Part shown: positions 15,379 to 48,635 of the stretch, one piece after another
Numbering within the stretch: position 1 is the first letter of the stretch
Layout of the letters: the number at the start of each line of letters is the position of its first letter
Assembly: GCF_023078375.1 (NCBI RefSeq)
Contig: NZ_CP095554.1
Coordinates: forward strand, 1,848,501 to 1,912,500
Reading direction: 5' to 3'
Length of the DNA stretch: 64,000 nucleotides
DNA from: Roseomonas gilardii subsp. gilardii
GTDB lineage: Bacteria > Pseudomonadota > Alphaproteobacteria > Acetobacterales > Acetobacteraceae
The notes under the pieces: generated by a model
The model's database searches: none
Told to the model about the DNA's origin: nothing
What the model saw: only the letters and a program-made list of their open reading frames with translations
Program-made: the position numbers and the translations under genes

Positions 15379-15420
15379 ACCCGCCCGCCCGGTACGGGCG
15401 TAGCGCCTGATGGCGGGCCT

Positions 15421-15690
15421 CGCGGGAGAGGCGCCGCCTCTCCCACACCCTCTCCGCCGGGGACCGAAGCCGGTCCCCGGACCCCGGGCTTTCGTTGGCG
15501 CCGGTGGTGGCCATCAGCCTGATGCCTGATCCCCGGGCGCAGGTGGATGGCGAGCTCCCGAAAAGAAAAACAACACCCTGCCCGCGCGAGCGGCGCCCGC
15601 AGTCGCTGGAAGGCTTGGCTCTCCGGCGCAATCCGGCGCAGCAGGCGCCAACGAACCGGGTTCAGGGCCCGCAGGGGCCTGGCGGATAGG
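15421..15690 (+). repeat. Interspersed multi-hairpin element, copy A (diverged)
   Basis: Diverged copy of the element seen at 28946-29260 and inverted at 34341-34653. Conserved: the hairpin GGGAGAGGC/GCCTCTCCC (15424-15444), the hairpin CCGGGGACC/GGTCCCCGG (15457-15480), the following CCCCGGxCTTTCGT, the block around CAGGTGGATGGCGAGCTCCCG, CTCTCCGGCGCAATCCGGC, and the right part near GGGCCTGGCGGAT. The outermost right hairpin (GGGGGAAGGC...) is lost. No coding sequence. The 15379-15847 interval otherwise holds nothing I recognise. Confidence 0.75.
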
Positions 15691-15847
15691 GGGGCTTGGG
15701 GCGAGGCACAGAGCCATGCCCCCGCGAGGCGCGGGCGGTGGGGCCTATGCCGCCCCGGGCAAGTAGCTATGTTTCTGAAAAGGAACAGTCTTTCGTCTGG
15801 TGGCGGGATGGGAAACCAACCCGCCGGCGCGGCGTTGGGGGCGCGTC

Positions 15848-19935: not shown

Positions 19936-20009
19936 GTCTCCGTAGCTCAGCAGGATAGAGCACCAGATTCCTAATCTGGGGGCCGTGGGTTCGAATCCCG
20001 CCGGGGACA
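19936..20009 (+). tRNA. tRNA-Arg (anticodon CCT)
   Basis: 74 nt folding into a full cloverleaf: acceptor GTCTCCG/CGGGGAC (one G-U), D arm GCTC...GAGC, anticodon stem CCAGA/TCTGG around loop TTCCTAA, variable loop GGGCC, T arm GTGGG-TTCGAAT-CCCGC, discriminator A. The anticodon CCT reads AGG. CCA is not encoded. A T-rich stretch (TTTTTCCCTTTT) directly follows and can terminate transcription. An AT-rich island starts about 165 bp downstream. Confidence 0.95.
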
Positions 20010-28852: not shown

Positions 28853-28945
28853 CGCCTGCTTTCTGACGCAGCCCGGGGACGGGCAAAACCCCCGAGGCAC
28901 CGTCTTTTCCGTGAGGGGGGGGGCTGGCGCTTCGCTGCGTGGCTG

Positions 28946-29260
28946 CCCCCGGGGGAGAGGCTCTGCCTCTCCCGCCGGACCCCCACACCGCCGGGGACCG
29001 AAGCCGGTCCCCGGACCCCGGTCTTTCGTGGGCTATGGTGGTGGCCCTCAGCCTGACGCCCGATCCCTGGGAACAGGTGGATCGGCGGGGTTCCCGAGAA
29101 AAAGAAAGACACGGTGTCCGCGCTGGTGGCACCGGCAGCCGCCGGAGAGCATGGCTCTCCGGCGCGATCCGGCCGCAGCAGGTGCCAAGGAACGGGAGGT
29201 CCAGGACCCTCAGGGTCCTGGCGGATGGGGGCCGGGGGAAGGCGGCGCCTTCCCCGGGGA
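28946..29260 (+). repeat. Interspersed multi-hairpin element, copy B
   Basis: About 315 bp, closely matching the inverted copy at 34341-34653. It holds five perfect stems in order: 28953-28973 (GGGAGAGGC/GCCTCTCCC), 28991-29014 (CCGGGGACC/GGTCCCCGG), 29142-29162 (CCGGAGAGC/GCTCTCCGG), 29201-29221 (CCAGGACCCT/AGGGTCCTGG) and 29235-29255 (GGGGAAGGC/GCCTTCCCC). A purine-rich tract GAGAAAAAGAAAGAC lies between stems 2 and 3. No ORF is shared by the copies. It fills the 437-bp gap between the FUSC start and the lhgO stop. Confidence 0.85.
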
Positions 29261-29289
29261 CAGGGCAGCGCCGGACCAGTGGGCCGGTA

Positions 29290-30393
29290 TCAGCCCTGCA
29301 AGGTGTCGCGGACGGCTTCGGCGAGGGAGAGGGAGGCGGTGAGGCCCGGGCTTTCGATGCCGTAGAGGTTCACCAGTCCGGGGATGCCATGACGGGCGGG
29401 ACCCTGGATCACGAAATCCTGCCCCGGCGCGCCCTGGGGCACGATCTTGGGACGGATGCCGGAATAGCCGGGTTGCAGCGCACCATCGGGCAAAGCGGGC
29501 CAGTAGCGGCGGATCGCCTCATAGAAGGAATCGCCGCGGCGGGGGTCCACCACGTAGTCGATATGGTCCACCCATTCGACATCGGGGCCGAAGCGCGCCT
29601 GGCCGCCAAGGTCGATGGTCAGGTGGGTGCCGAGACCGCCGGGGACAGGCACGGGGTAGATCAGCCGGGAGAAGGGCGAGCGGCCGGCAAGGGTGAAGTA
29701 GTTGCCTTTGGCGTAGTATTCCCGGGGCACGGTGTCGGGCGGCAGGCCGTCGATGGCGCGGCCCAGGGCGGGCGCTCCCAGGCCGGCGGCATTGACCAGG
29801 CTGCGGCAGAGCAGGGTCATCGGCTCGGCGCCCCCGACCTCCAGCACGATGCCGTCCGGCGTCACCCGCCCGGAAAGCACGGGGCTGTGGAAGGCCAGCA
29901 CCGCCCCGGCATTCTCCGCATCGCCCTGCAGGGCCAGCATATAGGCGTGGCTGTCGATGATGCCGGTGGAGGGCGAGAGCAGGGCGCCGTGGCAGGACAA
30001 AGCGGGCTCCAGCGCCAGGGCCTCGTCGCGGGACAGGAGGCGCATGTCCTCCACCCCGTTGGCGGCGGCACGGGCCTGGATGCCGGCGAGGCGCGCGGCC
30101 TCCTCCTCCGCGGTCGCGACGATCAGCTTGCCGCAGCGGGCATGCGGCACGCCGCGTTCCACGCAATAGGCATAGAGCATCCGCCGCCCGGCCACGCAGT
30201 GCCGCGCCATGAGGCTGTCGGCGGGGTAGTAGATGCCGGCATGGATGACCTCGCTGTTGCGGGAGGAGGTGCCCGTGCCGATCGCCTCGGTGCCCTCCAG
30301 CAGCAGGACCTCCCGGCCGGCCAGGGCCAGGCTCCGGGCGGCGGCGAGGCCCACCACCCCGGCGCCGACCACCACGCAGTCCACTGACTCCAA
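29290..30393 (-). CDS. lhgO: FAD-dependent oxidoreductase, L-2-hydroxyglutarate oxidase-like
   Basis: 367 residues, DAO-family flavoprotein. Rossmann FAD motif [20 protein letters not shown] at residues 4-23, then [15 protein letters not shown], the hallmark of L-2-hydroxyglutarate dehydrogenase/oxidases (LhgO/YgaF). The C-terminal half has [27 protein letters not shown] and [20 protein letters not shown]. The enzyme oxidises L-2-hydroxyglutarate to 2-oxoglutarate. The start is TTG 30393 with a perfect AAGGAGG six to seven bases upstream; no ATG fits. It is divergent from a small gene at 30534. A D-2-hydroxyacid dehydrogenase is encoded at 62433-63896. Confidence 0.85.
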
Positions 30394-30853: not shown

Positions 30854-33800
30854 TCATGCCGGGTCCTGGACCGGGGGCGCGGCAAGGGCCAGCGGCAGGT
30901 GGCGGTCCAGCAGCGCCTCCGGCAGCGGCATCACCACGCCGGACCAGGTCCAGACCAGCACGCATTCGATCCGCCGCCCCGGCCAGGCGGCGCGCAGCAC
31001 GGCGCGGTAGGCCGCCATTTGCCGCAGATAGGCGGGGGAGACGGAATCGGCCTGCTCCGGCGGCGGGCGGTTGGTCTTGTAGTCCGCCACCACGATCCGG
31101 TCGCTTCCGATCCACAGCCGGTCCACCTGTCCCGCCACCGTCACGCCGCCGAGGCGGCCGGCGAGCGGCGCTTCCGGCAGGCTGCCGGGGCCGAAGGCAT
31201 CCGCCAGGGCGGGGTGGCGGAGCACCCGCATCACCTCGGCGCAGGTCGCTTCCTGCTCCTCCGGCGAAAGCCCGTGCCCGGGCCGCGCGAGGTGCCGCCG
31301 CGCCACGGCCTCGCGCGCCGCCTCGGGATGGTCCGGCAGGTATTGCAGCAGGGCGTGGATCAGCGTGCCGCGCCGGAAGCGACGGCCGGACGGGTCGCTC
31401 TGCCCATGTGGCGCGGCGGCGGGCGGCTCGGTCTCCTCGCCCGCGAGGCGCGAGGGTGCCACCGGATCCTCCGAAGCCTCGGGCGGGGCGGGGTGGTGCG
31501 CCCAGGCCGGCAGCGCGGCGGGCAGCGACCTGCCGGCGCCGTCCCGGTCCGGGCGGGGCTCCGCGGTCTGGAGGGAGGAAAGCCGGTGGAGCGGGCCGGA
31601 GAAGCCCACCCCGGCCGGCCCGCCGAAGGCCGCGGGATCGAATTCCTCCTCCACCACGCCATCGCAGCGGGCGATGCCCTGGCGGACCAGCGTGTGCCAG
31701 CTCGTCTCCACCGCCTTCTTGGGCTCCAGCCCGCAGAGCAGCAGCCGGTCCTCCGCACGGGTCAGCGCCACGTAGAGCAGGCGGTTCTCCTCCTCGGCAT
31801 CGGCCGCGGCGCGGCGGCGCTCGGCTTCCTGCCAGACGCGGGCCTGGAACTCCTTGCGCGGCGCCCAGAGGGGGAGGGAGAGGGACGCTTCCTCCTCCCA
31901 GCGCAGCGGCGAGTTGCGGCCGCCGCGCCCGACATCGGGGATGATGACCACGGGCGCCTGGAGGCCCTTGGCGCCATGGGCGGTGAGGATGCGCACGGCA
32001 TCGCCCGCATTCTCGGCCTCGCGCTTCACCTCCGCGCCGCCGCGGCGCAGCCAGTGGGTGAAGCCCTGGAGGGAAGGCGGGTGGCGGTTCTCGTAGCGCA
32101 GCGCGGCGTTCAGCAGCTCGTCCAGCGCATCCGCCGCGTCGCCGCCCAGGCGTTCCAGCAGCTTCGCGCGGCCGCCATGCTCGCCCAGCACCTCGCTCAG
32201 CAGAGCATGCGGCGTGACGAGGTCGGCGCGGTCGGCCAGGGTGGCGATCCAGTCGGCGGCGCGGCCCTCCGGCGTCATGGCGCCGCGATGCCGGAGCAGG
32301 CGGTGCCAGAGCGGACCGTCGCGGTCATGGGCGAGGGCGAAGAGCGACTCCTCCTCCAGCCCGATCAGCGGCGATTTCAGCAGCGCGGCCAGTTGCAGGT
32401 CGTCTTCCGGCAGCAGCAGCACGTCGCAGAGCGCCAGCAGGTCCTGCACCGCGATCTGTTCCACCAGCGCGATGCGGTCCACGCCGCCCACCGCCACCCC
32501 GCGCCGCTTGAGCTGGCGCACCAGCAGTTCCGTCAGCCGGGTGCGGCGGCGGACCAGGATCATGATGTCGCCGGGGCGGATGGGGCGGTCGCCGCGCGCC
32601 GGCAGCGTCTCGTGCCGGACCATGTGGTCGATGCGAGCGGCCAGGGTCTCGGCCAGGAGGGCATCGGCATCCTGCGCCACCACCGGCTGGCTGGGCACGA
32701 ACCAGGGTTCCGGGTCCTCGGTGGTGCCGCGCGCCAGCAGGGGCCAGACCTCGACGCTGCCGGCATGGCCGGCGCGGTCGGGGAAGTGGTGCAGCGGATC
32801 GCCATCCGGCCGCACCACGCCGGCCCGCGCGGCGCCGTCGTGGAAGACGGCATCGACGAGTTGCAGCACGGGCGCGCAGGAGCGGAAGCTCACATCCAGC
32901 GCCACCGGCTGGAAGTTGCCGCCGGCCTGCCGCACCTGCTGGGAGAAGCGCGCCTCCCAGGTGGCGAAGCCCTGCGCGTCGGCGCCCTGGAAGCCGTAGA
33001 TCGACTGCTTCTCGTCGCCCACCACGAAGAGGGTGCGCTGCACCTTGGACTCGCGCGCGCCCTCGCCGGCGAAGAACTCCTCGGCCAGCGCCTCGGCGAT
33101 GCCCCACTGCGCCGGGTTGGTGTCCTGCGCCTCGTCCAGCAGGATGTGGTCGAGGCCGCCATCGAGCTTGAACAGCACCCAGGCCGAGCCGGGGTCGCGC
33201 AGCAGGCGTTGCGCGTGGTGGATCAGGTCGTCGAAATCCAGCGCGCCCATGCGGCGCTTGCGCGCGGCATAGTCGGAGAGCACCGGCCCGGCGGCGACCA
33301 GCAGCGCGCTGGTGGCGGCCAGCAGGCGGTGCGCGTTGGCGCGTTCCTGGAAGGATTTCAACCGCGCGGATTCCGCCGCCAGCGCGTCGAAGGGTTCCAG
33401 TGCCTTGCGCAGCTCGCCCTTGCCCGTGTGCAGGCAGTCCCACCATTCCGCCTGCCGCGCCATGCGTTCCCCGGGTGCCAGGGCGAGGAAATCGAGCATC
33501 TTCTGCCCGAGGTCGCGCGCCGTCTTGGTCTTGTGGGCGAGCAGCGCCTTCGCCTGTTCCGCGACCGCCGGCGGGATGTCGCAGATCAGCGCCGCCAGGT
33601 CCTCCTCGCGCTCGCCCTCCGGCAGGCCGAGGCGCTGGACCAGCATCCGCCCCAGCGCCAGCGCGCCGCCGGGTGTCTCGAAGAGCGCGGCCAGCTTCTC
33701 CCGCCGCCCCACCATTTCGCGCAGCGCCTCGGCGATCCGGTCGGCGGTGACGAGGCGGGCCAGGGCGGCCAGGGTTTCCGGTGGCACGCGCCCGCCGGAC

Positions 33801-34306
33801 AGCGCGGCCTCGCGCGCCTCGGCCAGCAGGGTGGCGGAATCCGCGTCCTCCAGCATGGCGAATTGCGGCGGCAGCTCGGCCTCCAGCGGGAAGGAGCGCA
33901 GCAGCGACTGGCAGAAGGCGTGGATCGTGGCGATGCGCATCCCGCCCGGCTGTTCCAGCACGCGGCAGAACAGCTTGCGCGCGGTGGCGAGCTGCGCGGG
34001 CGGCACGGGTTCGCCGGTCAGCGCCTCGATCTCCGTGCGCAGGTCGTCCTCGTCGGTGACGGCCCAGCGGCCCAGGCGCCGGTTGAGGCGGATCGCCATT
34101 TCCGCCGCAGCTGCCTTGGTGAAGGTGAGGCAGAGGATGCGGCCGGGCTCCGTGCCCTCCCGCAGCAGAAGGCGCAGCACACGGTCGGTGAGCACCTTGG
34201 TCTTGCCGGAGCCGGCCGAGGCGCCCACCCAGGCGGACAAACGCGGGTCCGAGGCGAGGCGCTGCGCCTGCTGCGCCCGCTCGCGCGCGGAAAGGGGGAT
34301 GTTCAC
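30854..34306 (-). CDS. addA: Double-strand break repair helicase-nuclease AddA
   Basis: 1150 residues, UvrD-type superfamily 1 helicase with a C-terminal RecB-like nuclease; with AddB it resects double-strand ends for RecA loading. Motifs: Walker A GASAGSGKTKVL (about residues 25-36), motif Ia LTFTKAAAAEMA, motif II ILLDEAQDTNPAQW, motif III VGDEKQSIYGFQGA, motif V/VI LTAHGAKGLQAPVV and VALTRAEDRLLL, and nuclease motif VADYKTNRPPP (about 1070). The start is GTG 34306 (VNIPLSARERAQQAQRL): upstream codons run into the repeat element and are not coding. Copy C of the repeat separates it from addB, where many relatives have overlapping genes. Confidence 0.95.
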   Translation of the reverse strand: MNIPLSARERAQQAQRLASDPRLSAWVGASAGSGKTKVLTDRVLRLLLREGTEPGRILCLTFTKAAAAEMAIRLNRRLGRWAVTDEDDLRTEIEALTGEPVPPAQLATARKLFCRVLEQPGGMRIATIHAFCQSLLRSFPLEAELPPQFAMLEDADSATLLAEAREAALSGGRVPPETLAALARLVTADRIAEALREMVGRREKLAALFETPGGALALGRMLVQRLGLPEGEREEDLAALICDIPPAVAEQAKALLAHKTKTARDLGQKMLDFLALAPGERMARQAEWWDCLHTGKGELRKALEPFDALAAESARLKSFQERANAHRLLAATSALLVAAGPVLSDYAARKRRMGALDFDDLIHHAQRLLRDPGSAWVLFKLDGGLDHILLDEAQDTNPAQWGIAEALAEEFFAGEGARESKVQRTLFVVGDEKQSIYGFQGADAQGFATWEARFSQQVRQAGGNFQPVALDVSFRSCAPVLQLVDAVFHDGAARAGVVRPDGDPLHHFPDRAGHAGSVEVWPLLARGTTEDPEPWFVPSQPVVAQDADALLAETLAARIDHMVRHETLPARGDRPIRPGDIMILVRRRTRLTELLVRQLKRRGVAVGGVDRIALVEQIAVQDLLALCDVLLLPEDDLQLAALLKSPLIGLEEESLFALAHDRDGPLWHRLLRHRGAMTPEGRAADWIATLADRADLVTPHALLSEVLGEHGGRAKLLERLGGDAADALDELLNAALRYENRHPPSLQGFTHWLRRGGAEVKREAENAGDAVRILTAHGAKGLQAPVVIIPDVGRGGRNSPLRWEEEASLSLPLWAPRKEFQARVWQEAERRRAAADAEEENRLLYVALTRAEDRLLLCGLEPKKAVETSWHTLVRQGIARCDGVVEEEFDPAAFGGPAGVGFSGPLHRLSSLQTAEPRPDRDGAGRSLPAALPAWAHHPAPPEASEDPVAPSRLAGEETEPPAAAPHGQSDPSGRRFRRGTLIHALLQYLPDHPEAAREAVARRHLARPGHGLSPEEQEATCAEVMRVLRHPALADAFGPGSLPEAPLAGRLGGVTVAGQVDRLWIGSDRIVVADYKTNRPPPEQADSVSPAYLRQMAAYRAVLRAAWPGRRIECVLVWTWSGVVMPLPEALLDRHLPLALAAPPVQDPA

Positions 34307-34340
34307 GCCGGTCTCGATTCCGGTTCGGGCGTTGCGCTGT

Positions 34341-34653
34341 CCCCGGGGGAAGGCGCCGCCTTCCCCCGGCCCCCATCCGCCAGGACCCTGAGGGTCCTGG
34401 ACCTCCCGTTCCTTGGCACCTGCTGCGGCCGGATCGCGCCGGAGAGCCATGCTCTCCGGCGGCTGCCGGTGCCACCAGCGCGGACACCGTGTCTTTCTTT
34501 TTCTCGGGAACCCCGCCGATCCACCTGCTCCCAGGGATCGAGCCACAGGGTAACGGCAGCCACGGGAGCCCACGAAAGCCCGGGGTCCGGGGACCGGCTT
34601 CGGTCCCCGGCGGTGTGGGGGTCCGGCGGGAGAGGCAGAGCCTCTCCCCCGGG
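34341..34653 (-). repeat. Interspersed multi-hairpin element, copy C (inverted, inside addB-addA)
   Basis: Inverted relative to copies A and B, and nearly identical to copy B over most of its length, including the CCAGGACCCT hairpin, the CCGGAGAGC hairpin, the purine tract and the two outer hairpins. A variable segment (about 34540-34575) differs from copy B. It fills the 378-bp gap between the addB stop and addA start, so in the addBA transcript it is read from the GGGAGAGGC end to the GGGGAAGGC end, the same direction in which copies A and B are written. Confidence 0.85.
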
Positions 34654-34684
34654 AGTGGACAAGGGCGCGACGCGGGCAAGGGGT

Positions 34685-37600
34685 TCATTCCGTGCCGGCT
34701 TCCTCGGCGCCGCCCCATTCGCGCTGGCGGGACAGGTGCTCGTAATCCGTGTTGCGGGGCGCGCGGCCCGGATGCGGGCGCGCCAGGAAGGGGCGGTCGC
34801 CCAGCAGGAATTCCCGCGCCAGCGCGTCCACCTGCCGCCATGCCGCCTCGGCCACTTCCGCCACCGTCACGTCGCCCTTCGGTTTGAAGACGAGTCGCTC
34901 GCCCTCCTCGATGGTACCTGAGAGCTTCCAGTGCTCCAGCGCCGAAACCGGGGCGGGCGCGATGCCGGGGAAGCCGCCCTTGAGCGCCATGGCGGCCTCC
35001 AGCGGCAATTGCGGCGCGCGGCCGTCCTGGATGGCGATCTGGGCCGGGGGGGCGCCGGTCTTGAAGTCGAGGATGGCGAGGCTGCCATCGGCCAGGATAT
35101 CCAGCCGGTCGGCGCGGCCTTCCAGCCGCACGCCGCAGGGCAGCTCGATCTGGCCGGACTGTTCGGGGTGGCGTTCCCGTACCTCCGGGCGCTCCCGCTC
35201 GGTGGCCAGCAGGAACTCGCCGATGCGGCGCAGGCGGGGGCGCCAGAAGGCGGCGAGGCCGGGACGGGGGGCATGCTGGCGGATCGCTTCCTCCACCGCC
35301 TCCTCGAACCATTCCAGGGCCCTGGGGCCATAGGTGCCGGCGCAACGGCGCGTCCAGGCCGCCACCGCGTCATGCACCACCGAGCCGAAGGCGGCGCCAT
35401 CGGCCTCGGCATCCAGCGGATCGAGCGGGCGCAGCCGCAGCACGCGCTTGGCGTACCAGGCATAGGGATCGGCCTTCAGGTCCCAGACATCGGTGACGGT
35501 GAGGCGGCGCGGGCGCAGCAGCATCGGCGGGGCCGGGGCCGGGCGGGGGCAGGGGAGGACGACCTCCGGCATGTCCAGCCGCGCCGCCCAGTCGGTGGCG
35601 GGCGAGGGCTTGATCCGCAGCCCCTTCTGGCCATGCAGGAAGATCTGCAACCGGGTCAGCCAGCGCGCCTGCACCGAGGGGCTGCCGCCGCGCTTGCGGG
35701 CATGGCTCAGCACCACGTCCGGGGCGGCGAGGGCGCTCATCATGAAATCGGCGGCGACGCGGCCGATGCGGGCCTCCGGGGCCGGCAGGCCGAATTCGCG
35801 GCGCATCGGGCGGCTCATCCAGGCGCCGGGATCGGTGGCGATCGGCCAGACGGTCTCCTCCAGCGCGCCCAGCACCACGCGGTCGAAGGATTGCAGCCGC
35901 GCTTCCAGCAGGCCGAGGACCTGCACCCGTGGATGGCTGCCGCCCTGGCGGCCGCGCATGTTGCGCACGCCCGGGGCCAGCGGCCCTTCCAGCAACGCGT
36001 CGAAGAGCGCGGGCCAGGCGGCGGCCGAGACGGGCGGCAGGCATTCCATGGCCGGGCCCAGCGAGGCGAGATGCGCGGCCAGGGGCTCGCCTTCCTCCCC
36101 GGCATAGAGGCGCAGGCCGCCCGGCTCGGTGTCGGTGGCGGCCAGGGCCTCGGCGGCACCGAGCAGCCCTTCCAGCATCGCGGCGGGCGGGCGGGCGATC
36201 TCGGGCAGGTCGGTGAAGCCGCCCCCGGGGCCGCCCAGGGCCCGTTCCAGCGCGTCGAGCAGGGCGGTGACGCGGGCGCGGCGTTCGAGCCGGGCCTGCT
36301 GCCGTGCCTCGCTCTCGGCGGGGGCTTCGGGATCAGGGTCGGCAAAGGCACGTGCCGCGGCGGTGCGGAGCCCGGTCAGGCCGGGGGCGGGGCGGGGGCC
36401 GCGCAGCGCGTGGCGCTCCAGGTCGTGCAGGGCGCGCAGCCAGTCGGCCCGGGCCATGCCGCCGGCGCAGGAGGGGTGCTTCAGGCAGGCGAGCAGGGCG
36501 ACGGGGGAGAATTCCTCCGCCACCATGCGCGCGATCAGGCGCAGGAAGGCGCCGGTCGGGGTCTGGGCGAGGGGCTGGCCGGCGGAATCATCGGCCAGCA
36601 CGCCGTGGCGCGCGAGTTCCACGCAGACGCGGCGGGCGAGGTCGCGGTCCGGCGTCACCAGGGCGGCGCGGCTGCCGGGGGTTTCCAGGGCCTCCCGCAG
36701 CAGCAGGGCGATGGCGGCTGCCTCGCCCGCCTCGTCCGGGGCGGTGAGGAGGGACATGTCCTTCAGCGCCGGGGCCCAGCGTTCCGGCGCCTTCTCCTGC
36801 CAGCAGGCGATGTCGCCGGGCGGGCGCAAGGCGCGGGCGAGCAGGGCGCCGCGCGCCTCCCCGGCCGGATCGGGCGGCAGGTCGTGTGGCCAGGGCCGCA
36901 GGTCGCCCGGCGTAGCGCCCATGGCCTGGAGCAGCCGCACCTGGCCACAGAGCGGGTGGGTGTGGCTGGCGCAGAGCTCGTCCCAGATGGGGGAGGGCCA
37001 GGGCTGGGGCGGCAGCGGCTCGCCGGAGCCGTGCAGGACCACATGCCCGTTGGGGCAGTGCGCCAGGACCTTCAGCAGCTCGGCGGCGGCGGGGATGGTG
37101 CCGCCCAGGCCGATGCCGGCGGCGATCACGAGATCCTCCGGCGGGTTCTGCCTCCACAGCGCGGTCTGGGCGCGGATGGTGGCGACGCGGCGGGTGCCGA
37201 TGTCGGAGAGGCCCTGCTGCGCCAGCCAGGCCTGCCATTCCTGGATCACGCCGTTGAGGAAGACATGGGTGATCTGCCAGTGCCGGGCCAGCCGGTCCGG
37301 CACCAGGGAGGGCAGGCGGGAGGGGTCGCAATCCTCCAGCGCCATCTCGTCCAGCAGGGTCGCCAGTTCCTGCGCCAGCCGCCAGGCCTGGTCGGGATGC
37401 GAGGGGCCGCCGTAGTTCGGCGGCAGGCGCATCACCAGCGCCGTCAGCACGGCGAGCCGGCGCGCCGGGTCCACCGCCGGGGGCTGGTCCATTAGAGCAG
37501 GGAGGGAGAGTTCCTCCGCATCCTCCACCGAAAGCCCGGCCAGGGGGCGCAGGCGCGGCAGCAGCAGAGCCTGCCGGCCGCTCGCCTGCCCGGCGGCGCG

Positions 37601-37774
37601 CAGGAAGCTCTCGCGTAGGCTGCGGGCGGCGCGCCGGGTCGGCAGCAGGATCGTGGCGCGGGCCAGGAGGGTGGGGTCCGGGGCGGCCGGGCCCTTCGCT
37701 CCGGCGAGGCGCACCACCCCCTGGGCCAGGGCATCCAGAAAGGGGAGGTGGGCCGGGATCTCGTGAAGGTTCAT
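34685..37774 (-). CDS. addB: Double-strand break repair protein AddB
   Basis: 1029 residues, the alphaproteobacterial AddB type. The N-terminal helicase-like region carries ILLPTRRAARSLRESFL in place of an active Walker A, consistent with a structural or recognition role. The C-terminal nuclease has LEGRADRLDIL and LAILDFKTGAPP (about residue 900) with an upstream FGSVVHDAVAAW. Partner of AddA in end resection. I use ATG 37774 (MNLHEIPAHLPFLDALA; GGGAA upstream) rather than ATG 37807. It precedes addA on the same strand with repeat copy C between them. Confidence 0.93.
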   Translation of the reverse strand: MNLHEIPAHLPFLDALAQGVVRLAGAKGPAAPDPTLLARATILLPTRRAARSLRESFLRAAGQASGRQALLLPRLRPLAGLSVEDAEELSLPALMDQPPAVDPARRLAVLTALVMRLPPNYGGPSHPDQAWRLAQELATLLDEMALEDCDPSRLPSLVPDRLARHWQITHVFLNGVIQEWQAWLAQQGLSDIGTRRVATIRAQTALWRQNPPEDLVIAAGIGLGGTIPAAAELLKVLAHCPNGHVVLHGSGEPLPPQPWPSPIWDELCASHTHPLCGQVRLLQAMGATPGDLRPWPHDLPPDPAGEARGALLARALRPPGDIACWQEKAPERWAPALKDMSLLTAPDEAGEAAAIALLLREALETPGSRAALVTPDRDLARRVCVELARHGVLADDSAGQPLAQTPTGAFLRLIARMVAEEFSPVALLACLKHPSCAGGMARADWLRALHDLERHALRGPRPAPGLTGLRTAAARAFADPDPEAPAESEARQQARLERRARVTALLDALERALGGPGGGFTDLPEIARPPAAMLEGLLGAAEALAATDTEPGGLRLYAGEEGEPLAAHLASLGPAMECLPPVSAAAWPALFDALLEGPLAPGVRNMRGRQGGSHPRVQVLGLLEARLQSFDRVVLGALEETVWPIATDPGAWMSRPMRREFGLPAPEARIGRVAADFMMSALAAPDVVLSHARKRGGSPSVQARWLTRLQIFLHGQKGLRIKPSPATDWAARLDMPEVVLPCPRPAPAPPMLLRPRRLTVTDVWDLKADPYAWYAKRVLRLRPLDPLDAEADGAAFGSVVHDAVAAWTRRCAGTYGPRALEWFEEAVEEAIRQHAPRPGLAAFWRPRLRRIGEFLLATERERPEVRERHPEQSGQIELPCGVRLEGRADRLDILADGSLAILDFKTGAPPAQIAIQDGRAPQLPLEAAMALKGGFPGIAPAPVSALEHWKLSGTIEEGERLVFKPKGDVTVAEVAEAAWRQVDALAREFLLGDRPFLARPHPGRAPRNTDYEHLSRQREWGGAEEAGTE

Positions 37775-45133: not shown

Positions 45134-46885
45134 TCAGGCGGCGTGGCGCGCCGGTTCCGGCCGCGCCGCGGCGCCCTGGCCGGCGGCGTGCTTGGCGATG
45201 CGCCAGCCGAAGACCATGGCCGGGCCGAGCGTGGTGCCGGGGCCCGGATAGGTGCCGCGGAAGATCGAGCTCAGGTCGTTGCCGCAGGCATAGAGGCCGG
45301 GGATGGGCTGGCCCTCGCCATCCAGCACGCGGCCGTCGCCATCGCCCTGGAGGCCGCCGCTGCAGGCGAGGTCGGCGGGCCAGACCGCCATGGCGTAGAA
45401 GGGGCCGGGGCCGATCGGGCGCATGCAGGGGTTGGGCTTGTTCTCCGGATCGCCGTTGAAGCGGTTGACCGTGCTGCTGCCGCGGCCGAAGGCCTCGTCC
45501 ACGCCGGTTTCGGCATAGCGGTTGTGCTCGGCGACCGTCTGCTCGAAGCCCGTGGCATCGAAGCCGGCCTTCTGCGCCAGCTCGCGCAGGGACTTGCCCT
45601 CGATGAGGTAGCCGGCCTTCAGGAAAGGCTCCAGCTTCTTCGTGCCGGGGAAGACCATGCCCAGGCCGTACTGCTTCAGGAAGCTCGCGTCGCAGATCAG
45701 CCAGGCGGGCAGGGTCGGCACCGTCTCGTTCGAGCGGAGCATGCCCATGACGAAGTCGTGGTAGGAGTCGGACTCGTTCACGAAGCGCCGCCCGGCCTTG
45801 TTCACCGCGATCAGCCCCGGCTTGGCACGGTCGAGGATGATGTGCGGCCAGACGGATTCCCGCCCGTCCGGATGCTTCAGGATGGAGCAGGGCATCCAGA
45901 GGCCGGGGCTGTCGAGCCCCTCGGCCAGCGCGGCGCCGTTGCGCAGCGCGAGGGAAACGCCGTCGCCCGTGTTGGTTTCGGGCGCGAGGGAACGCTGCTT
46001 CGTGCCCTCCGGGAAGAGCTGTGCGCGCAGGGCCTTGTTGTGCGCGATGCCGCCGGTGGCGAGCACCACGCCGCGCCGCGCGCGGATCGCCTTGCGCCCG
46101 TCCTTGCCCGCGACGATGGCGCCCAGCACGGCGCCGTCGCGCTTCACCAGTTCCATCAGCGGCGTCTCGAAGCGGATCGGCACCTTGCGCTGGCGCAGGC
46201 TGTAGAGGAGGCGGCCGACCAGGGCGTTGCCCATCACCAGCCGCGTGCCGCGCCGGTGGCGGAGGCGATCGCGGAAGTGGCGCAGCAGCAGGCCGGTGGC
46301 GGTGCGGAAATTGGCGGCGGAGGCGAAGGGCTTGAGCAGCGGCTCGATCTCCGTCCGCTGCACCATCATGCCGCCCAGCACCATGAAGACGTCGCGCGGC
46401 GGGCGCACGCGGCGGAAATCCTCGCCGAGCAGGCGGCCGTCGAAGGGGGCGGGGGAGAGGGCGCGGCCGCCATAGGCCTCACCGGGATGGTTGCCGAGAT
46501 AATCCGGATGCGCCTTGGCCGGGATCAGGTGCACCTCGGTCTTCGCTTCCAGCTCGTCCACCGCCTTCGGCCCGGCCTCCAGGAAGGCGGCACGCGCCGC
46601 GTCGCCGCCGCGCAGGCCGATCACCGATTGCAGGTAGCGCGCGGCATCCTCCACGGAATCGGGCACGCCCGCCTTGACGCTCAGACTGGTGCCGGGGATC
46701 CAGATCGTGCCGCCGGAGGTGGCGGTGATGCCGCCGGCCATGCTGGTCTTCTCGCAAAGCAGGACGTCGAGCCCTTCCAGCGAGCCCACCAGCGCGGCGG
46801 TCATGCCGCCCGCGCCGGCGCCGATCACCAGGAGATCGACCTCCTCATCCCAGTGGGGGGCGCCGTGAGGGGTGTCAGACGGCAT
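45134..46885 (-). CDS. KstD/fumarate-reductase-type FAD dehydrogenase (1)
   Basis: 583 residues. FAD-binding motif VDLLVIGAGAGGMTAALVGS (about 17-36), MAGGITATSGGTIWIPG next to the isoalloxazine site, RGVVLATGGIAHN and a C-terminal GLYACGNDLSSIFRGTYPGP with GTTLGPAMVFGWRIA, all typical of the 3-ketosteroid-delta1-dehydrogenase/fumarate reductase flavoprotein family. Likely introduces or reduces a ring C=C bond. ATG 46885 (GGGAGAA upstream) overlaps the end of the paralogous upstream gene by 11 bp. The paralogues share architecture but differ in active-site stretches, suggesting different substrates or successive steps. Confidence 0.88.
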   Translation of the reverse strand: MPSDTPHGAPHWDEEVDLLVIGAGAGGMTAALVGSLEGLDVLLCEKTSMAGGITATSGGTIWIPGTSLSVKAGVPDSVEDAARYLQSVIGLRGGDAARAAFLEAGPKAVDELEAKTEVHLIPAKAHPDYLGNHPGEAYGGRALSPAPFDGRLLGEDFRRVRPPRDVFMVLGGMMVQRTEIEPLLKPFASAANFRTATGLLLRHFRDRLRHRRGTRLVMGNALVGRLLYSLRQRKVPIRFETPLMELVKRDGAVLGAIVAGKDGRKAIRARRGVVLATGGIAHNKALRAQLFPEGTKQRSLAPETNTGDGVSLALRNGAALAEGLDSPGLWMPCSILKHPDGRESVWPHIILDRAKPGLIAVNKAGRRFVNESDSYHDFVMGMLRSNETVPTLPAWLICDASFLKQYGLGMVFPGTKKLEPFLKAGYLIEGKSLRELAQKAGFDATGFEQTVAEHNRYAETGVDEAFGRGSSTVNRFNGDPENKPNPCMRPIGPGPFYAMAVWPADLACSGGLQGDGDGRVLDGEGQPIPGLYACGNDLSSIFRGTYPGPGTTLGPAMVFGWRIAKHAAGQGAAARPEPARHAA

Positions 46886-48635
46886 GTTCGTTTCTCCCAA
46901 CGGTATTCGTGTCGTGGTCCGTGGAGCGGCCGGCCATGTGGCGTGCCGCGATCCAGCCGAAGGTCATGGCGGGGCCGAGGGTGATGCCGCCGCTCGGGTA
47001 ATGGCCGCCCATCACGCTCGAAAGGTCGTTGCCCGCCGCGTAGAGGCCGGGGATCGGCTGGCCCCACGCATCCAGCACGCGCGCCTCGGCATCGGTGATG
47101 AGGCCGGCGAAGGTGCCGAGGCTGCCGGGCACGATCCGCACGGCGTAGAAGGGGCCTTGCCCGATCGGCGCGATGCAGGGGTTGGGCCCGTCGTGATAGG
47201 CATCGCCCTGGCCGCGCTGGAAGGGCGTGCTGCCGCGCCCGAACAGCGTGTCCACGCCCTGCCGCGCGTCGTTGTTGTAGGCGGCGAGCGTGTCGCGCAG
47301 CCCGGCGGCGTCGATGCCGCAGGCGGCGGCCAGTTCCTCGATCGTCCTGCCGCGCTTCAGGTAGCCGTTGCGCAGCCAGGGGGAGAGCGGCAGCGGCGCC
47401 GGCTTCACCGCGCCCATGCCGTAGCGGCGCAGGAAGCGGTGGTCGCAGAGGAGCCAGCATTCCGCCGCCTCGCCAGGCCCCAGCGCCCGGAACAGGCCGC
47501 GCATGAAGTCGTGGTAGGGGCCGGACTCGTTGACGAAGCGGTGGCCCTGGCGCGTGACCGCGATGATGCCGGGCTTGCCACGGTCGATCAGATGCGGGAA
47601 GCGGCCGGTCGTGCCGTCGGCGCGCGGCACCAGCGAGACGGGGGCCCAGGCGCCGGAATCCGCCAGCCCGCCATCGACCTGACCGCCCACGGCCTCCGCC
47701 AGGCGCATGCCGTCGCCCGTGTTGGTGGCGGGCGCGGCGGACTGGTGCGGCGTGCCCTCGCGCACATGCGGGAAGAGCTCCCTCTGCCGCGCCGGATCGT
47801 GCGGGAAGCCGCCGGTGGCGAGCACGACGCCGCGCCGCGCGGTGACGGCGATGCGGCCTTCCGGCCCTTCCAGGATGGCGCCCGTCACGCTGTCGCCGAG
47901 GCGGGTGATCTGGCGCGCGGCGGTGGAATGCCAGAGCGTCACGCCACGATCGGCGGCGGAGCGCAGCAGGCGCGCGGCAAGGGCATTGCCGTTGACGAGC
48001 TGCATCGAGCGGCGATGGCGCGCGAGGTCGAGGCCATGGCGGGCGAGGCGCTTCGCGACATGGGCGAAGGATGCGGCCGAGCGCGTGGCGCGCAGGAAAT
48101 GGCCGAGATCGGCGCCCGAGGCGATGGCCATGCCGGCCAGCGTGGTCTCGGGGATGGGCGGGCGCAGGCGCGCGATCAGCGGACCCAGCTCGCGCCCGTC
48201 ATAGGGCGCGGCGACGACGGAGCGCCCGCCGGTGGCGGCGCCGGGGGCGTTGCCGTGGAAATCGGGCACGGCGCTGCCGGGCAGGAAGCGCACGGCGGTC
48301 TCGCGCTCGAAGAAGTCGATCATGCGCGGCCCGGCTTCCAGGAAGGCGTCCACGCGGGCGGGATCGTAGCGGTTGCCGAGGATGTGGCGGAGATAGGTGC
48401 GCGGGGCCTCGGCATCCTCCTCGATCCCGGCGCGGACCACGACCGGGTTGCGCGGCACCCAGAGCCAGCCGCCGGACCAGGCGGTGGTGCCGCCGAAGAC
48501 CGGCTCCTTCTCCGCCACGATCACCTCCAGCCCCAGCGCCGCCGCCGTCACCGCCGTGGCGAGGCCACCGGCGCCGGAGCCGATCACCAGCACGTCGCAG
48601 CTCCGGCTGCGCGTGGTGTCTGCCATCCCGTCCAT
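46875..48635 (-). CDS. KstD/fumarate-reductase-type FAD dehydrogenase (2)
   Basis: 586 residues. CDVLVIGSGAGGLATAVTAA (FAD motif), VFGGTTAWSGGWLWVPRNP, RGVVLATGGFPHDPARQREL, GLYAAGNDLSSVMGGHYPSG and GITLGPAMTFGWIAARHMAG. The last block matches the KstD family and is clearly paralogous to the downstream enzyme. The start ATG 48635 overlaps the iclR stop by one base (TGATG), so translation is coupled to the regulator. Membership of the IclR operon suggests induction by the pathway substrate. Substrate unknown; steroid rings are not implied by context. Confidence 0.88.
   Translation of the reverse strand: MDGMADTTRSRSCDVLVIGSGAGGLATAVTAAALGLEVIVAEKEPVFGGTTAWSGGWLWVPRNPVVVRAGIEEDAEAPRTYLRHILGNRYDPARVDAFLEAGPRMIDFFERETAVRFLPGSAVPDFHGNAPGAATGGRSVVAAPYDGRELGPLIARLRPPIPETTLAGMAIASGADLGHFLRATRSAASFAHVAKRLARHGLDLARHRRSMQLVNGNALAARLLRSAADRGVTLWHSTAARQITRLGDSVTGAILEGPEGRIAVTARRGVVLATGGFPHDPARQRELFPHVREGTPHQSAAPATNTGDGMRLAEAVGGQVDGGLADSGAWAPVSLVPRADGTTGRFPHLIDRGKPGIIAVTRQGHRFVNESGPYHDFMRGLFRALGPGEAAECWLLCDHRFLRRYGMGAVKPAPLPLSPWLRNGYLKRGRTIEELAAACGIDAAGLRDTLAAYNNDARQGVDTLFGRGSTPFQRGQGDAYHDGPNPCIAPIGQGPFYAVRIVPGSLGTFAGLITDAEARVLDAWGQPIPGLYAAGNDLSSVMGGHYPSGGITLGPAMTFGWIAARHMAGRSTDHDTNTVGRNEHAV

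Follow-up and report, generated by a model that had tools for sequence, protein, structure and literature searches.

The locus

The window is the whole stretch of DNA that was analysed, 64,000 nt of the chromosome contig (C1) of Roseomonas gilardii subsp. gilardii. This source genome is called G000; G003, G004, G008, G012, and G013 are other genomes of the genus. A preliminary description had claimed three copies of one element in the window. The three copies were found again, with ends slightly wider than first given, by sequence comparison:

15411..15724, + strand, copy A, decayed (hairpins H3 and H5 weakened)
28919..29284, + strand, copy B, whole element (two arms and centre)
34316..34682, - strand, copy C, whole element, inverted

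Copies B and C, taken as an inverted pair, are 96% identical over 312 nt. Copy A has two blocks in common with B, one of 104 nt (87%) and one of 82 nt (77%). Its later stems had been described as degenerate, which holds for H3 and H5 but not for H4, which is kept with one mismatch (by eye).

Copy B follows the stop codon of a DAO-type oxidoreductase gene (29290-30384, - strand) by 5 bp and precedes the start of a FUSC-type gene by 66 bp. Copy C lies 2 bp from the stop codon of an AddB-like gene (34685-37774, - strand) and 9 bp before the predicted start of an AddA-like gene (30854-34306, - strand). The names AddA and AddB are putative and were given from UvrD and PD-(D/E)XK domains. Copy A sits behind a DEAD-box helicase gene. 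Our codon-usage gene caller placed no gene over any of the window copies, in agreement with the earlier claim. Elsewhere in the window, two diverged direct repeats (165 and 130 nt) occur at 45273-46139 and 47023-47898 with an equal spacing of about 1.75 kb. This repeat pair suggests tandem paralogous genes.

Anatomy of the element

The element is about 370 bp long. A central hairpin is flanked by two inverted arms, each with two hairpins of its own. The parts of copy B are as follows:

28953..28973, + strand, hairpin H1, GGGAGAGGC-TCT-GCCTCTCCC, 9 pairs
28991..29014, + strand, hairpin H2, CCGGGGACCG-AAGC-CGGTCCCCGG, 10 pairs
29096..29109, + strand, purine tract GAGAAAAAGAAAGA (pyrimidine tract on the - strand)
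29140..29164, + strand, central hairpin H3, CGCCGGAGAGC-ATG-GCTCTCCGGCG, 11 pairs, its loop often inverted in other copies
29201..29221, + strand, hairpin H4, CCAGGACCC-TCA-GGGTCCTGG, 9 pairs
29235..29255, + strand, hairpin H5, GGGGAAGGC-GGC-GCCTTCCCC, 9 pairs

The general anatomy was drawn from 30 and then 76 copies; the 76-copy alignment contains only copies with matches of at least 300 nt. The left arm begins with the outer end GGCGTTGCGCT, followed by H1 (..AGGC-NNN-GCCT..), the linker CGGACCCCC, CTCCGCC, H2, GGACCCCGGGC, and TTCGTTGGC. The centre contains GATCC..GGATC, the purine tract, and H3 (CGCCGGAGAGC-NNN-GCTCTCCGGCG). The right arm contains inverted relatives of the left-arm parts, in the order GCCAACGAA, GGTCC, H4, GGCGGA..GGGGG, H5, and AGCGCAACGCC. 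The inverted ends (consensus GGCGTTGCGCT on the left and AGCGCAACGCC on the right) vary between copies. The H1 and H5 loops form one common set when read as reverse complements. Judged from its sequence, the element is best described as a diverged inverted pair of two-hairpin arms around a centre.

The claim of five ordered stems was borne out: 96.0% of 3,287 stem cells were paired over the 76 copies, with H5 counted by its five inner pairs. Contrary to the earlier statement, the stems are not always perfect. One H1 pair is A.C in 23 of 93 copies, and one H4 pair is G.T in 67 of 93. By eye, the H2 stem is GGGGACC..GGTCCCC in most copies. It is swapped whole to GGGGGGATGGTATCCCCCC in L097, L105, and L107 and to the H4-like AGGACCCTGCGGGCCCT in L093, L103, and L119 (by eye). 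Extra palindromes were seen by eye inside H4 (L079, L086, and L102) and inside H5 (L086, L114, and L132).

Copy number and spread among relatives

The H3 pattern, with at most three mismatches, gave 73 hits at 72 places in G000, a lower bound since the pattern is blind to copies with a damaged centre. All were on C1, and the reversed control of the pattern gave 0 hits in G000. The count of three copies in 64 kb was true of the window but was only the window's share of a genome with at least 72 places. A search with copy B in G000 scored 40 of 239 candidate places, and all 40 were long matches with 77 to 100% identity. More decayed or partial copies were met in random G000 samples.

Copy B matched 16 of 60 genomes at an E value of ≤0.001. 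These were 13 of 15 genomes of the genus (G000 included) and 3 of 21 from elsewhere in the family; none of the 24 from elsewhere in the class matched. Only G003, G004, and, at about 69%, G013 had matches that spanned most of copy B (11 places scored per genome). The H3 pattern, with both strands counted, had 122 hits in G003, 147 in G004, 6 in G013, and 0 in G012. The exact H4 pattern was present in 20 of 299 family genomes and 8 of 102 genera (genomes at the quality limits). The exact H4 28-mer had 0 matches in one scan of a viral collection. A diverged copy was found on a plasmid of Roseomonas sp. OT10 (G013).

The preliminary description had named the finding of only three copies, with no covariation and none in relatives, as the case against it. 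We found many copies, covarying stems, and matches in relatives. Recent local duplication was rejected on the many copies in the genome and in relatives.

Some loci in genus mates (L035, L037, L045, and L056) have, by eye, the same hairpin order with other sequences and a different central palindrome. Copies were also found near contig ends, in G004 at C16:103, C17:121, C21:315, and C45:952 and in G306 at C78:54. Because of this position, the repeat may break short-read assemblies.

Gene context

A gene caller based on codon usage, trained on 161 ORFs, supplied the genes; its starts are less sure than its stops. Of 80 pieces, 75 were used as sites; three second pieces and both halves of a single split copy were set aside. 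The 75 include neither window copy A nor any copy met only in random samples. The sites were convergent in 43 cases, tandem in 31, and divergent in 1. In the background, 464 kb with 376 pairs of neighbouring genes, 52 pairs were convergent, 271 tandem, and 53 divergent. Fisher tests gave P values of 1.4e-14 for the convergent excess and 6.7e-4 for the divergent deficit. The result held against origin-side gaps of at least 20 bp (3.3e-9 and 2.9e-5).

The median distance from the element edge was 13 bp to a stop codon (n = 117) and 98 bp to a start codon (n = 33), where the edges of the best 30 copies were set to correspond to window positions 28919 and 29284 and those of the remaining copies to the ends of the match. 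At tandem sites, the element had the same orientation as its host gene in 15 cases and the opposite orientation in 16. A called gene overlapped the element by more than 60 bp at 3 of 75 sites (L010, L030, and L080). Convergent gaps are generally short, with a median of 61 bp. The gap between convergent genes at L071 (about 2622320-2622815 of G000) measures 495 bp and has several AT-rich stretches, in a region of 71% GC.

Folding, covariation, and strand

On both strands, copy B folded with a better energy than every one of 100 shuffled sequences (z = -6.9 and -7.5). When the partners in the five local stems were slid by 1 to 3 columns, pairing fell to 37 to 52% (76 copies). Changes on both sides were present in 13 of 44 stem pairs over the same copies. 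Stem cells changed on both sides numbered 97 against 23.9 ± 3.9 in shuffled data, and 0 of 500 shuffles reached that number; kinship alone can beat all shuffles without structure, and conversion between copies inflates the excess further.

Two long-range helices, one between the arms (TTCGTTGGC with GCCAACGAA) and one of GATCC with GGATC, were paired in 84.7% of cells. They had no covariation excess (10 cells versus 10.9 shuffled). An overall RNA fold was rejected because these helices covary no more than shuffles. RNAalifold retained H3, H4, and the inner part of H1. It also paired CCGCC (columns 79-83) with GGCGG (361-365), where there are few changes. Its covariation term was small, -2.27 of -39.38 kcal/mol.

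Among 4,361 cells with letters on both sides, G.T occurred in 134 and A.C in 158, counts in which the H5 share rests on a poor alignment. The ratio of G.T to A.C was 74:4 in H4 and 9:33 in H1. No strand is favoured, since these two stems lean in opposite ways.

At the gathering threshold, Rfam matched nothing in the 64-kb window except a tRNA at 19936, in keeping with the earlier remark that no named family fits. The best subthreshold match to copy B was a eukaryotic microRNA model with an E value of 0.01. A scan of B for the classic hairpin with a T-run gave one weak match (- strand, 29123-29109) and none at H1, H2, H4, or H5. A scan around B gave no sigma-70-like promoter match.

A family of trans-acting structured RNA genes, one of the earlier proposals, would explain the strong local structure and covariation. 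It is not supported by the two long-range helices tested, which do not covary, by the small RNAalifold term, or by the G.T and A.C counts, which give no consistent strand. Stems are swapped whole, loops are inverted, and no Rfam family matches. Copy B has no promoter match of the sigma-70 type that was scanned. G004 tolerates deletion of the centre, and the element points the same way as its host gene about as often as not (15 same and 16 opposite). We regard such RNA genes as very improbable.

Loop inversions

The H3 loops of 72 copies were CAT in 20, ATG in 12, ATC in 13, GAT in 9, and others in 18. Two reverse-complement pairs account for 54 of the 72. The chance of two such pairs among four random loops of 64 is 496/635376, about 0.0008, a figure that ignores the one-change distance of ATG from ATC and of CAT from GAT. 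The orthologues L028 and L033 are 92% identical, and their H3 loops are CAT and ATG, respectively. In L136, the G003 copy of C, the H2 stem-loop on the left reads as the reverse complement of that copy's own H4 on the right. Within single copies, H1 and H5 loops matched in 18 of 74 cases versus 19.1 shuffled, which is not above chance.

Template switching in hairpins leaves such marks; in the part of the source available, loop inversions alone are enriched, and a loop inversion together with a compensatory change is very rare (PMC8794818). The loop and stem-loop inversions may be the mark of hairpin template switching, and the element seems to repair its own hairpins. Covariation alone is no proof of selection on RNA, since template switching can make complementary stems.

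Stem complementarity may be a mutational product, in which template switching restores pairing and covariation is silent on function. The H3 loops that fall mostly into two reverse-complement pairs, the CAT/ATG difference between L028 and L033, and the H2 of L136 that mirrors its H4 all agree with this, and the mechanism is known from the literature (PMC8794818, as far as that source was available). It leaves unexplained why the element lies at gene ends and why five stems are retained at set places, and the H1 and H5 loops of single copies, which match no more often than by chance, speak against it. We consider it a serious possibility, somewhat short of even, and it is compatible with the other explanations.

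Persistence at loci and exchange between copies

G003 is collinear with window positions 21.6 to 35 kb (90%), and G004 is collinear with almost the whole of that stretch. Copy B is present in both genomes, with its centre deleted in G004. Copy C is present in both, and its place between the AddB-like and AddA-like genes is retained in these two further species (three in all). Of copy A, G003 contains the left arm only, and nothing is recognisable in G004. Copies B and C are nearly identical within G000 yet only 76 to 82% identical to their own orthologues (aligned stretches, flanks included).

For eight G003 and G004 orthologues, the true G000 partner ranked 19, 1, 12, 1, 2, 23, 35, and 9 among 60 copies; orthologue pairs with matches of <300 nt are outside the eight. 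We compared 18 element loci of G003 and G004 with G000 DNA that is biased toward element loci: both flanks matched at 10, one flank at 2, and neither at 6. The element was present at 9 of the 10 two-flank loci, and an 85-bp remnant was present at 1. Copies hold their place across species while exchanging sequence. Gene conversion between copies is the simplest reading of the ranks and of the likeness of B and C. Two G003 loci, L126 and L130, each share one flank only with a G000 element locus (the comparison was with L007 and L084), which suggests rearrangement joints at elements.

No clear target-site duplication was seen by eye in the copies compared. Copy A is unrecognisable in G004, where the flanks are diverged; the G000 loci compared were mostly picked for elements and offered few chances of seeing an empty site.

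The element could be a selfish, MITE-like palindrome that was spread by a transposase since lost or escaping recognition, is now mostly immobile, survives only where it is harmless behind stop codons, and has no function. Its inverted arms, with outer ends near GGCGTTGCGCT and AGCGCAACGCC, and its high copy number fit this. So do the several sequence families of the same architecture in genus mates, the diverged copy on the Roseomonas sp. OT10 plasmid, and the tolerated decay in G004 (A unrecognisable and the centre of B deleted). Its loci are unchanged across species, however, and a search for PF01797, the one family searched, revealed no autonomous partner in six genomes. Clearance from promoters would ask for neither such short distances to stop codons nor the inverted symmetry, though convergent gaps are short anyway. 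We hold this reading to be rather unlikely.

Distribution along the chromosome

None of the 72 pattern sites lies between 2.05 and 3.75 Mb of C1, which is 40% of the contig. The largest gap in G000 is 1.79 Mb, a size reached in 0 of 20,000 simulations. Among the 44 places listed for G003, out of its 122 hits, the gap is 1.67 Mb (0 of 20,000 simulations). A decayed G003 copy at 1.111 Mb, met in a random sample, trims it to 1.64 Mb; the other G003 places, among the matches listed, likewise lie outside 1.111 to 2.751 Mb. In G013, 2 of the best 40 of 434 candidates lie within 0.98 to 2.75 Mb, and the largest gap is 1.06 Mb (reached in 123 of 20,000). Two other copies do lie in the G000 arc: L025, at 2.493 Mb, is full, and the one at 2.414 Mb is partial (the right half). 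Terminus avoidance is sharp in two species and weak in a third, and the arc is nearly free of the element.

GC skew in G000 is positive from 1.85 to 2.41 Mb, near zero from 2.62 to 3.04 Mb, and negative from 3.25 Mb. In G000 samples, the motif GGGCAGGG, presumably of the FtsK-orienting type, has mainly the forward orientation as far as 2.85 Mb and mainly the reverse from 3.46 Mb on. In G003, samples between 0.8 and 1.7 Mb have it forward (15:2) and those at 1.9 Mb have it reverse (0:2), and GC skew is too noisy to use in that genome. Its orientation is mixed elsewhere on the contigs. A dif pattern had no match in four genomes, and no clear origin signal was found. Since dif had no match, placement of the terminus rests on GC skew and the orientation of GGGCAGGG. 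We infer, from small motif counts, a terminus inside the gaps of both G000 and G003.

One 20-kb sample from the middle of the arc is 91 to 93% conserved in G003, where it lies in the middle of that genome's own gap, and in G004. An acquired island as the cause of the empty arc is not supported, as this single sample is conserved in two species. We sampled 17 convergent gaps in the arc; a perfect hairpin of at least 8 pairs is present in 7 and absent from 10. One of the seven hairpins has a T-run; it is at 2.414 Mb beside the partial element.

Noc and SlmA sites are short protein-binding sites. In the available part of one source, they are scarce or absent near the terminus (PMC4726725). The element resembles them in its scarcity near the inferred terminus and differs in its length of about 370 bp and in the two copies inside the arc. 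It may, like them, be a DNA site for chromosome organisation, cruciform or protein bound, that marks the origin-proximal part. The empty arcs of G000 and G003 (each 0 of 20,000 simulations) suggest this, as do the motif orientation (in G000 also GC skew) that sets the terminus inside both gaps and the old core DNA of the arc where sampled (20 kb, 91 to 93%). But L025 and the partial copy lie in the arc, the pattern is weaker in G013, and the terminus call comes from small motif counts with neither a dif match nor a clear origin signal. Decay and stem swapping suit sequence-specific binding poorly. Such a role appears improbable. We give about the same low credence to a combined possibility, a self-repairing hairpin that is kept at gene ends over the origin-side 60%, is excluded from the terminus, and also acts in segregation, folding, or fork progress.

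Comparison with known systems

Like REP and BIME elements, as the available part of one source presents them, the element contains palindromic hairpin units, inverted pairs, varied stems, and structured spacers and has a high copy number (PMC3733652). That part describes REPs mainly between unidirectional and convergent genes, downstream of genes, and REP dimers with structured spacers, and it gives CGTC REPs as missing in Acetobacteraceae (PMC3733652). The element is also downstream of genes and rare between divergent genes. Unlike REPs and BIMEs, it is about 370 bp long, has a fixed five-hairpin order and a long centre, and is scarce in the terminus arc. No GTAG or CGTC tag was seen by eye beside the stems; the conserved linkers are GGACCCC, GGTCC, or GGCGGA. 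The Y1 transposase family PF01797 was found in 0 of 6 genus genomes (G000, G003, G004, G013, G012, and G008), and the control was positive in 5 of 14. The element would work like a BIME but is outside the described REP superfamilies, as it has no GTAG/CGTC tag and no RAYT.

REPINs are shorter than this element. As in REPINs, inverted palindromes form one unit; unlike the REPIN/RAYT system, six genomes have no PF01797 match, and the element is longer, with five hairpins. Bacterial MITEs have inverted ends and no ORF and are dispersed. The element shares terminal inverted repeats, the absence of an ORF, and dispersal with them. It differs in that no target duplication is clear by eye, no autonomous partner was found (PF01797 only), and positions are constant across species.

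Lichenicola cladoniae is a species that we take to be an acetobacter. RepRanger gives 1,369 REPs for it, and the available part of that text does not name Roseomonas (PMC12306157).

Interpretation

The preliminary description had offered a MITE-like or BIME-like element or a compound terminator, which is close to the data in that the element is dispersed, high in copy number, noncoding, intergenic, and behind stop codons. Our preferred reading, with a probability of about 0.5, is a REP/BIME-type noncoding interspersed repeat, a five-hairpin composite at gene 3' ends that acts on transcripts. Action on transcripts from either side is indicated because the element is symmetric, lies behind stop codons, and is indifferent to orientation. 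A transcript from either side would meet a two-hairpin arm with C-rich linkers within about 13 nt past its own stop codon. The arm may end or pause transcription, protect the mRNA 3' end, or both. Since each arm is an inverted copy of the other, a single element could serve both convergent genes, and its own orientation would be irrelevant. With no T-run, it might act through a Rho-dependent stop at the C-rich linkers, through pausing, or through 3'-end protection. Recombination between copies and template switching in hairpins would hold the stems complementary while the sequence drifts.

A full terminator is hard to accept at copy C because that copy lies between the AddB-like and AddA-like genes; processing or stabilisation fits better there. 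Further points argue against the preferred reading. Convergent genes in the sampled terminus arc manage without the element, the position behind stop codons could come from loss of copies that landed elsewhere, and mutation by itself is able to produce covariation.

The literature searched, mostly outside subscription journals, contained no report of REPs or palindromic repeats for Roseomonas. The element adds an apparently undescribed repeat family to the genus. It also reveals a sharp terminus-side avoidance, in DNA that is conserved where sampled, for which the preferred reading does not account. With some 70 copies in one genome in which compensatory changes and loop inversions can be traced, template switching, and not only selection on RNA, becomes testable as the keeper of hairpins.
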